Shown here: in pieces, positions 4,516-5,563 of the stretch
Position numbering within the stretch: position 1 is the stretch's first letter
Layout of the letters: every line of letters starts with the position of its first letter
Assembly: GCA_023380935.1 (NCBI GenBank)
Contig: JAMCST010000013.1
Coordinates: 1 to 37,031, forward strand
Length of the DNA: 37,031 nucleotides
Direction: 5' to 3'
From: Patescibacteria group bacterium
GTDB lineage: Bacteria > Patescibacteriota > Microgenomatia > UBA1406 > GWC2-37-13
Notes under the pieces: generated by a model
The model's database searches: none
The model's input: the letters and a program-made list of their open reading frames with translations, nothing else
Told to the model about the DNA's origin: nothing
Translations under genes and position numbers: made by a program

Positions 4516-4538
4516 ACCCAATCCACCTCGTAGGTGTA
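4516..4538. repeat. Left REP-like direct repeat
   Basis: Identical over 23 bases to 5275-5297. It contains the hairpin CACCT-CGT-AGGTG and begins 6 bases after the stop of the glutaredoxin-like gene. Confidence 0.75.
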
Positions 4539-4639
4539 TTTCAGGTCATAATAAGGCTTCATTACAGGTTAAATTTGTCATGATGTTGGGTATATTCCGT
4601 TGTTATTTTCCCCAAATGAAGCTAAATTGACGGTAGGAA

Positions 4640-5275
4640 ATGAAACAATACCTACGGGATAACTATTACCACATTTTCAACAAAAGCATTGCTCGTTTTC
4701 AAATTTTTAATACCCACACTACTATTAGATTCATTGAACTACTGGATTATTACAACAACAGTAAACCCAAGTTGAGATATTCCGTTGCTATAAAAAAATG
4801 TCTATACCAATACCAAAATATTCTGTTACCTCGGCCTAATTCACTAATAAAAGTGATCGCCTACTGCATTATGCCTGACCATTATCATCTTCTGGCAAAA
4901 ATCATCCAATCCGATTGTTTGTCCAAATACTTAGGTGATGTTGAAAACGGATTTTCTCGCTATTTTAACCTCACTCATCATCGCCATGGTCCACTATGGC
5001 AATCACGCTTCAAGGCGGTTAGAATAAAGACCAACGAACAATTATTACACGTCAGCCGTTATATCCATCTTAACCCGACCACGGCCCAACTCGTTCTATT
5101 ACCACAAGACTGGGCGGGATCTTCGTATTGTGACTTTATCAACCATCCCCAAGCCTTAAGAAACTGGGTTACCGATATTTCCATCTATCAACCAGCAGAT
5201 TACAAACGATTCGTTGAAGATAATCAATCTCATCAATTGAAGCTAAAATCGATCAAAAATGTACTCTTCGACTGA
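4640..5275 (+). CDS. REP-associated tyrosine transposase (IS200-like Y1 transposase)
   Basis: 211 residues, normal for a RAYT. N-terminal YYHIFNKSI, the metal-binding HUH-type motif MPDHYHLL (HYH, about residues 78-85), a nucleophile candidate Tyr in the helix FSRYFN (about 106-111), GPLWQSRFKAV (about 117-127) and RYIHLNP (about 140-146) are all family signatures. It would nick single-stranded DNA at REP-like hairpins. Unlike most genes here it has a Shine-Dalgarno-like AGGA just before the ATG and no -10 box at leaderless distance, and it is AT-richer than its neighbours. Both points fit acquisition by transfer. Confidence 0.92.
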   Translation: MKQYLRDNYYHIFNKSIARFQIFNTHTTIRFIELLDYYNNSKPKLRYSVAIKKCLYQYQNILLPRPNSLIKVIAYCIMPDHYHLLAKIIQSDCLSKYLGDVENGFSRYFNLTHHRHGPLWQSRFKAVRIKTNEQLLHVSRYIHLNPTTAQLVLLPQDWAGSSYCDFINHPQALRNWVTDISIYQPADYKRFVEDNQSHQLKLKSIKNVLFD

Positions 5276-5297
5276 CCCAATCCACCTCGTAGGTGTA
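5275..5297. repeat. Right REP-like direct repeat
   Basis: Second 23-base copy of 4516-4538. It starts at the last base of the transposase stop codon and lies directly next to the 3' end of the minus-strand tRNA cluster. Confidence 0.75.
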
Positions 5298-5302
5298 ACG
5301 GG

Positions 5303-5481
5303 CAGGGCCAGGAGGAATTGAACCTCCATCAAAGGTTTTGCCTGCCCGCCGTATCGTGCAGGTCCGGAGGGAGTCGAACCCCCACTTGGGGTTTTGGAGA
5401 CCCCAGGTCTACCGTTAACCTACGGACCTTAGAGGCATTGCAGGCGGGGAAACCTCTATTCTACCGTTAAACTATGGCCCT
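5303..5481 (-). tRNA. Split outer tRNA (tRNA-Trp-like) interrupted in the anticodon loop
   Basis: The 5' part (5481-5449) gives acceptor AGGGCCA, a D-arm and the 5' strand of an anticodon stem GAGGT plus TTC. The 3' part (5340-5303) gives CAAA, ACCTT, a T-arm GGAGG-TTCAATT-CCTCC, acceptor strand TGGCCCT and discriminator G. The acceptor strands pair at 7 of 7 positions, and GAGGT pairs with ACCTT with one wobble. About 108 bases, holding a complete tRNA-Trp, separate the parts at positions 34/35. Joining them at C34/C35 gives anticodon CCA; A1-U72 and G73 also fit Trp, and the sequence resembles the inner tRNA. The exact junction is ambiguous (GCA or CCC are possible). It may be a spliced gene, a trans-assembled tRNA or a pseudogene. 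Confidence 0.6.
5359..5429 (-). tRNA. tRNA-Trp (CCA), nested in the outer tRNA
   Basis: A complete cloverleaf: acceptor AGGTCCG/CGGACCT, D-arm, anticodon stem GGGGT/ACCCC with loop CTCCAAA (anticodon CCA), T-loop TTCGACT and discriminator G. CCA is not encoded. It lies inside the anticodon loop of the outer tRNA. Flanking stretches CCCGCC (5448-5443) and GGCGGG (5350-5345) are complementary and would hold the outer halves together. Confidence 0.92.
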
Positions 5482-5488
5482 TGGCGGT

Positions 5489-5563
5489 TGGTGCACCCAC
5501 CCAGAATTGAACTGGGATCAGTGGTTCCGCAAACCACTACTCTATCCGTTAAGCTATGGGTGC
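5489..5563 (-). tRNA. tRNA-Arg (GCG)
   Basis: Acceptor GCACCCA/TGGGTGC, anticodon stem GTGGT/ACCAC with loop TTGCGGA, giving anticodon GCG, and T-loop TTCAATT. The 3' CCA is encoded (5491-5489). It is the first gene of the minus-strand tRNA cluster. Confidence 0.93.

Follow-up and report, generated by a model that had tools for sequence, protein, structure and literature searches.

The window is a stretch of 37,031 nucleotides (positions 1 to 37,031 of contig JAMCST010000013.1, assembly GCA_023380935.1) from a Patescibacteria group bacterium, the source assembly being a metagenome bin of 940 kb that is 85% complete. On its minus strand, a tRNA-Arg(GCG) gene (5563-5489) is followed after a 7-nt gap by a tRNA-Trp gene (5481-5303) that is interrupted by a cassette holding a second tRNA-Trp. 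The features of the locus are:

5489..5563, minus strand: tRNA-Arg(GCG), called by ARAGORN; upstream member of the same predicted transcript and a conserved neighbor of tRNA-Trp in the family
5449..5481, minus strand: 5' half of the outer (resident) tRNA-Trp, positions 1-34, sequence AGGGCCATAGTTTAACGGTAGAATAGAGGTTTC, from the empty-site reconstruction
5341..5448, minus strand: inserted 108-nt cassette, made up of left end, inner tRNA-Trp and right end; homologous 108-nt cassettes occur in genomes G204 and G242
5430..5448, minus strand: cassette left end, 19 nt, CCCGCCTGCAATGCCTCTA; the CCCGCCTGC.. end is seen on cassettes of many isotypes
5359..5429, minus strand: inner tRNA-Trp(CCA), complete, called by ARAGORN and by Rfam (RF00005, 62.2 bits)
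5341..5358, minus strand: cassette right end, 18 nt, CACGATACGGCGGGCAGG, from the end-defined search and homologous cassettes
5303..5340, minus strand: 3' half of the outer (resident) tRNA-Trp, positions 35-73, sequence CAAAACCTTTGATGGAGGTTCAATTCCTCCTGGCCCTG, from the empty-site reconstruction

The original prediction of a complete tRNA-Trp within the anticodon loop of another tRNA is borne out by ARAGORN, Rfam and the empty-site reconstruction, and the coordinates it gave for the inner gene and both outer halves are exact. The cassette lies precisely between C34 and C35 of the resident gene. When the outer halves are joined, the acceptor stem (7/7), D stem (4/4), anticodon stem (5/5) and T stem (5/5) pair at 21 of 21 positions, in line with the pairing reported earlier for the acceptor and anticodon stems, and the loop reads TTCCAAA (TTTC^CAAAA across the junction) with the anticodon CCA. 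With the insert in place ARAGORN misses the outer gene; with the 108 nt taken out it calls tRNA-Trp(CCA). The outer gene had been described as "probably a tRNA-Trp paralog"; because its anticodon is CCA, its identity as a tRNA-Trp is firmer than that. Shuffled sequences gave an expectation of 0 cases of two D arms as close as those of the nested locus, which sets chance aside as an explanation. The cassette ends are GC-rich and imperfectly palindromic (CCCGCCTGC.. on the left, ..GCGGGCAGG on the right), and the flanks CCCGCC and GGCGGG are complementary, as had been noted. The non-tRNA part of the cassette amounts to 37 nt, too short for a promoter or a protein gene. Rfam detects 28 tRNAs in the genome, and no intact tRNA-Trp other than the inner gene was found there. 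The same genome contains a second cassette, L211 (G000:C11:202755-202862), in which a tRNA-Pro(GGG) lies within a tRNA-Pro whose 5' half has decayed; this inner tRNA-Pro gene was overlooked by the Rfam-based genome search and picked up by ARAGORN.

In the family, tRNA-Trp(CCA) is usually uninterrupted and adjoins tRNA-Arg(GCG) at most loci. Most plain tRNA-Trp genes of relatives differ from the outer gene at 8-17 of 71 positions, compared with 15-22 for the inner gene; the corresponding mismatches are 12 and 16 for plain tRNA-Trp of the same genus and 8 and 22 for the gene of G049. G001, a member of the same genus, has the D arm, anticodon stem and variable loop in common with the outer tRNA-Trp. 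Since the plain genes of relatives are mostly nearer to the outer than to the inner sequence, these comparisons mark the outer tRNA-Trp as the resident orthologue and the inner one as foreign. The acceptor stems of the two genes differ and are nonetheless fully paired, which is expected if both once worked in different lineages. An order-level survey found the cassette in 1 of 83 genomes, namely the source genome.

A class-wide search of 374 genomes recovered homologous nested Trp loci in G204 (locus L104, Gottesmanbacteria) and G257, both of family f25, and in G242 of family f9, each with the insert between positions 34 and 35 as in the window. The outer tRNA-Trp of G242 is intact and of quite a different type (TGATGAAACGGTATCATGGCGGT; halves TGATGAAACGGTATCATGGCGGTCTC^CAAAACCGC), sharing 22 of 34 positions with the window in its 5' half. 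Whole-cassette identity among the window, G204 and G242 is 85-89%, and the right internal flanks of the G204 and G242 cassettes match at 17 of 18 positions. Like cassettes in unlike resident tRNA-Trp genes imply that the unit moved between unrelated residents; as would be expected of a mobile element, the shared cassette occupies unrelated targets and the corresponding sites are uninterrupted in relatives. The outer genes of these loci form an erosion series: they are intact in the window and G242, and decayed in G204 (an insertion of 30-odd nt in the T arm, together with an acceptor mismatch) and in G257 (a scrambled 5' half), and only 5' remnants are left in G321 and G268. The inner tRNA-Trp is intact at every locus of the series. 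Plain inner-type tRNA-Trp genes without outer halves occur in G315, G109 and G299 and may be donors or end-stages, the direction being unproven.

The distribution of the arrangement was surveyed in two ways. In the first, 84,980 species genomes were scanned for pairs of tRNA D arms separated by 25-54 nt, an approach sensitive only to inserts that share the strand of the tRNA and lie in its 5' portion; it returned 103 stretches, largely from Patescibacteria. About 40-50 of these are real nests, nearly always with a single isotype and anticodon (Val, Thr, Ile, Met, Phe, Gly or Trp); part of the first broad list was rejected as assembly gaps, partial tandem copies or minisatellites. Because the scan was limited to same-strand nests, a search defined by the ends and blind to content was also performed, using the pattern CCCGCCTGC N72-102 GCGGGCAGG and its reverse complement for the other orientation. 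This gave 43 matches in 27 of 380 Patescibacteria genomes, and 0 with a reversed-pattern control; dispersed copies thus share palindromic ends in the manner of REP elements. With earlier loci included, 38 non-redundant cassettes, all with these particular ends, were examined. A complete tRNA is present in 31 of them (Arg, Gly, Thr, Val, Ile, Trp, Cys, Ala, Pro, Leu), and in 26 of these 31 the flanks, once joined, match the inner tRNA through the junction and on its own strand with a score of at least 15 (the 99% point of shuffles being 10.5 and their maximum 18; antisense maximum, 12). In about 14 of these 31, ARAGORN recognized an outer tRNA of matching type. The junctions map to nt 33-39, in the anticodon loop, or to nt 22-24, in the D stem, and most insertions sit 5' of a pyrimidine. 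No tRNA-bearing cassette was seen outside tRNA genes in the end-defined search. The remaining 7 of 38 cassettes (L195, L196, L198, L199, L201, L203, L221) have the same ends with AT-rich, tRNA-less contents, and all lie at non-tRNA sites; they are possibly a parent element family or spaced hairpins. The same architecture recurs in dozens of genomes, as the check on relatives proposed earlier had asked, and the window locus is one case of a widespread, recurrent tRNA-in-tRNA class that involves many isotypes across Patescibacteria.

Several related arrangements were observed alongside these cassettes. Russian-doll arrays of 2-4 same-type tRNAs occur at L166, L155, L098, L135 and L154, with about four Val layers at L166 and three Thr layers at L155. 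A second class of Val cassette, with ends TTCACCCCGTTAG.. and ..CTAACGGGGCAAG and with outer positions 36-37 removed, is found at L118, L121, L130, L132, L135, L141, L150, L157 and L166. Same-type nests with other palindromic ends occur beyond Patescibacteria in Omnitrophota (L140) and Margulisiibacteriota (L117). Bare GC-rich hairpins with no tRNA cargo were seen in tRNA D, anticodon or T arms (L075, L086, L141, L160, L164), and the genes affected sometimes carry several hairpins. Phage contigs L059, L060, L063, L064 and L065 contain apparent circularly permuted tRNA genes, with a short linker and the 3' half first. For the window locus a permuted tRNA was rejected, as the 5' half comes first, followed by the inner tRNA and then the 3' half.

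A gene for a RAYT-type Y1 transposase (4640-5275), lying within a REPtron (4516-5297), adjoins the nested tRNA. The gene is flanked by exact 23-nt direct repeats holding the GTAG palindrome ACCCAATCCACCTCGTAGGTGTA, which has 5 exact copies in the genome. This transposase was considered as the mobilizer of the cassette and rejected: its REP differs from the cassette ends, RAYT relatives lie near few of the loci retrieved, and Y1_Tnp, present in 14 of 20 cassette genomes, is missing from several cassette-rich ones (G756, G658, G642). Neither a GTAG nor a CGTC tag is present at the cassette ends, and no transposase or integrase was found tied to the cassette. The ends are not an abundant genomic repeat, CCTGCCCGCC having only 4 copies in the source genome. 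A phage or plasmid source was likewise rejected, with only ordinary tRNA-Trp similarity detected; no viral contig was found to carry an inner-type tRNA-Trp, and 0 of the 94 end-pattern matches in viral contigs hold a tRNA.

We consider it likely that the insert is a palindrome-ended mobile cassette that brings a replacement for the very gene it breaks and has that replacement expressed from the resident promoter. The cassette, presumably moved by an enzyme acting in trans, would insert cleanly into the anticodon loop of the resident tRNA-Trp, between positions 34 and 35, and break the gene. Lying on the same strand behind tRNA-Arg, the inner tRNA-Trp would be transcribed from the resident promoter and could be freed by ordinary RNase P cleavage and 3'-end maturation. 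The cell would survive because the inner gene is expressed in this way, and as the inner gene would thereafter be the only tRNA-Trp, the cassette could not be lost. The outer halves would become a relic, without function and free to decay over time, with the window insertion probably young enough for its outer tRNA-Trp still to look perfect. This would also account for the shared strand and type, because survival demands both if an essential, single-copy tRNA is broken and the inner one uses the resident promoter. Several observations count against the mobile cassette: many outer genes retain every stem pair, more than old insertions predict; no transposase or integrase is tied to the cassette, Y1 transposases being missing from several genomes that bear it; and no free mobile form has been caught, tRNA cassettes having been seen within tRNA genes only. 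The inner-type genes that lack outer halves also leave the direction of movement unproven. A possible but doubtful extension is a homing system, in which an enzyme actively directs tRNA cassettes to tRNA genes of matching type and inserts them in the anticodon loop. Such an element would kill an essential gene and supply its only replacement, making itself indispensable, and re-insertion into its own tRNA would build the Val and Thr arrays. Alternatively, insertion may be undirected and filtered by viability, so that only indispensable insertions persist.

The nested copy might instead have been made in place, with a palindromic hairpin breaking the tRNA and repair or template switching adding a same-type tRNA, either the resident one or one taken up as foreign DNA, so that no mobile cassette would be involved. 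The near identity of some inner and outer genes (L149, L168), the occurrence of the same ends without a tRNA at non-tRNA sites (7/38) and the absence of tRNA cassettes from intergenic DNA are in keeping with such copying. However, the Trp inner gene and its internal flanks are common to residents of different families and tRNA types, from which it follows that the unit moved whole, and an essential tRNA present in single copy, if broken by an empty hairpin, should cost the cell its life, so that we regard in-place copying as rather improbable. As the locus stands on a single contig of a metagenome bin, an assembly chimera also deserves mention. The junctions lie at an exact, isotype-specific site, and the architecture is shared by many independent assemblies from different projects, some of them near-complete with few contigs; misassembly, put forward earlier as a way in which the prediction could fail, is on these grounds refuted for the class and scarcely credible for this locus.

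It had further been proposed that RNase P and 3' processing would free the inner tRNA and leave the outer halves held by their GC-rich ends, in the manner of split tRNAs. In a reading built on this, both tRNAs are live, and a ligase joins the outer halves while the CCCGCC/GGCGGG helix holds them together. The anticodon loop is the usual position of introns, the 6-bp helix is conserved, and about a dozen outer genes (including L077, L100, L105, L106, L110, L116, L131, L142, L167 and L168) regain 7/7 loop bases and 20-21 of 21 stem pairs after precise removal of the insert. Yet a tRNA splicing endonuclease (EndA; PF01974) was found in 0 of 22 genomes, namely the source and 21 others with nested tRNAs, in a search that detected the enzyme in 4 control archaea. 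RtcB (PF01139) was not found in the 85% complete source assembly and is present in only 7 of the 21 others. Homologous outer genes are often eroded, and those of L156 and L109 are eroded too. Some outer genes are without positions 36-37 (the Val class) or without the whole anticodon arm (L117, L163), and excision could therefore not restore decoding; the acceptor and T stems of L117 and L163 are nonetheless still paired, which means that pairing by itself, however good, is no proof of decoding. The anticodon is nearly always shared between inner and outer genes, which a live outer tRNA would not need. Split-tRNA maturation of the outer gene is thus unlikely, and we judge the reading with two live tRNAs to be very improbable. 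Within the window, intron families did not reach the gathering score in the Rfam search, so that no group I or group II intron core was found, and the earlier remark that the locus is not a strict bulge-helix-bulge intron agrees with the poor fit seen here. The suggestion of a decayed duplicate was half right: the outer gene is an interrupted resident, but the insert is better explained as a mobile cassette bringing a replacement than as a duplicate.

Integrative elements with attachment sites in tRNA genes rebuild the interrupted gene by means of a partial copy at the junction. They resemble the cassette in targeting tRNA genes and in preserving tRNA function, but in the nested locus the interrupted gene is left unrepaired, with a complete replacement inside it. 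We know of no element that carries a whole replacement for the gene that it interrupts. REP and TIR elements are palindromic miniature elements mobilized by RAYT/TIRYT tyrosine transposases (PMC3733652). Like the cassette, they are bounded by short GC-rich palindromes, carry no gene themselves, insert cleanly and have a mobility that is known by inference; unlike them, the cassette carries a complete tRNA of its target's type, has no tied transposase and no GTAG tag at its ends, and in its tRNA-bearing form is confined to tRNA genes. The split tRNAs of Nanoarchaeum and Crenarchaeota (PMC4033280) are also broken at the anticodon loop into halves with complementary ends. In the nested locus, by contrast, both halves would belong to the same transcript with a complete tRNA between them, the outer gene is often decayed, and the hosts are bacteria in which no splicing endonuclease was found. 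Group I introns in the anticodon loops of bacterial tRNAs (PMC4033280) share insertion at or near the anticodon, an isotype-specific site and a patchy distribution, whereas the cassette is 108 nt long, has no ribozyme core (no Rfam intron match) and has a tRNA as its cargo. A 2014 review described bacterial tRNA genes as "surprisingly uniform", with the insertion of group I or II introns as the only significant exception (PMC4033280). In the original prediction, no described tRNA gene was known that holds another in its anticodon loop, and our literature searches on nested or interrupted tRNA genes, which most of the subscription literature lay outside, agree: they yielded no comparable arrangement, the only case found being a tRNA-Sec inside selB.

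The mobile cassette proposed here would constitute a single-step route for swapping an essential single-copy gene for a foreign one, and would show how a tiny element can become essential. In genome annotation, outer halves are overlooked or taken for introns. Isotype-specific tRNA replacement would be directly traceable through genome comparison.
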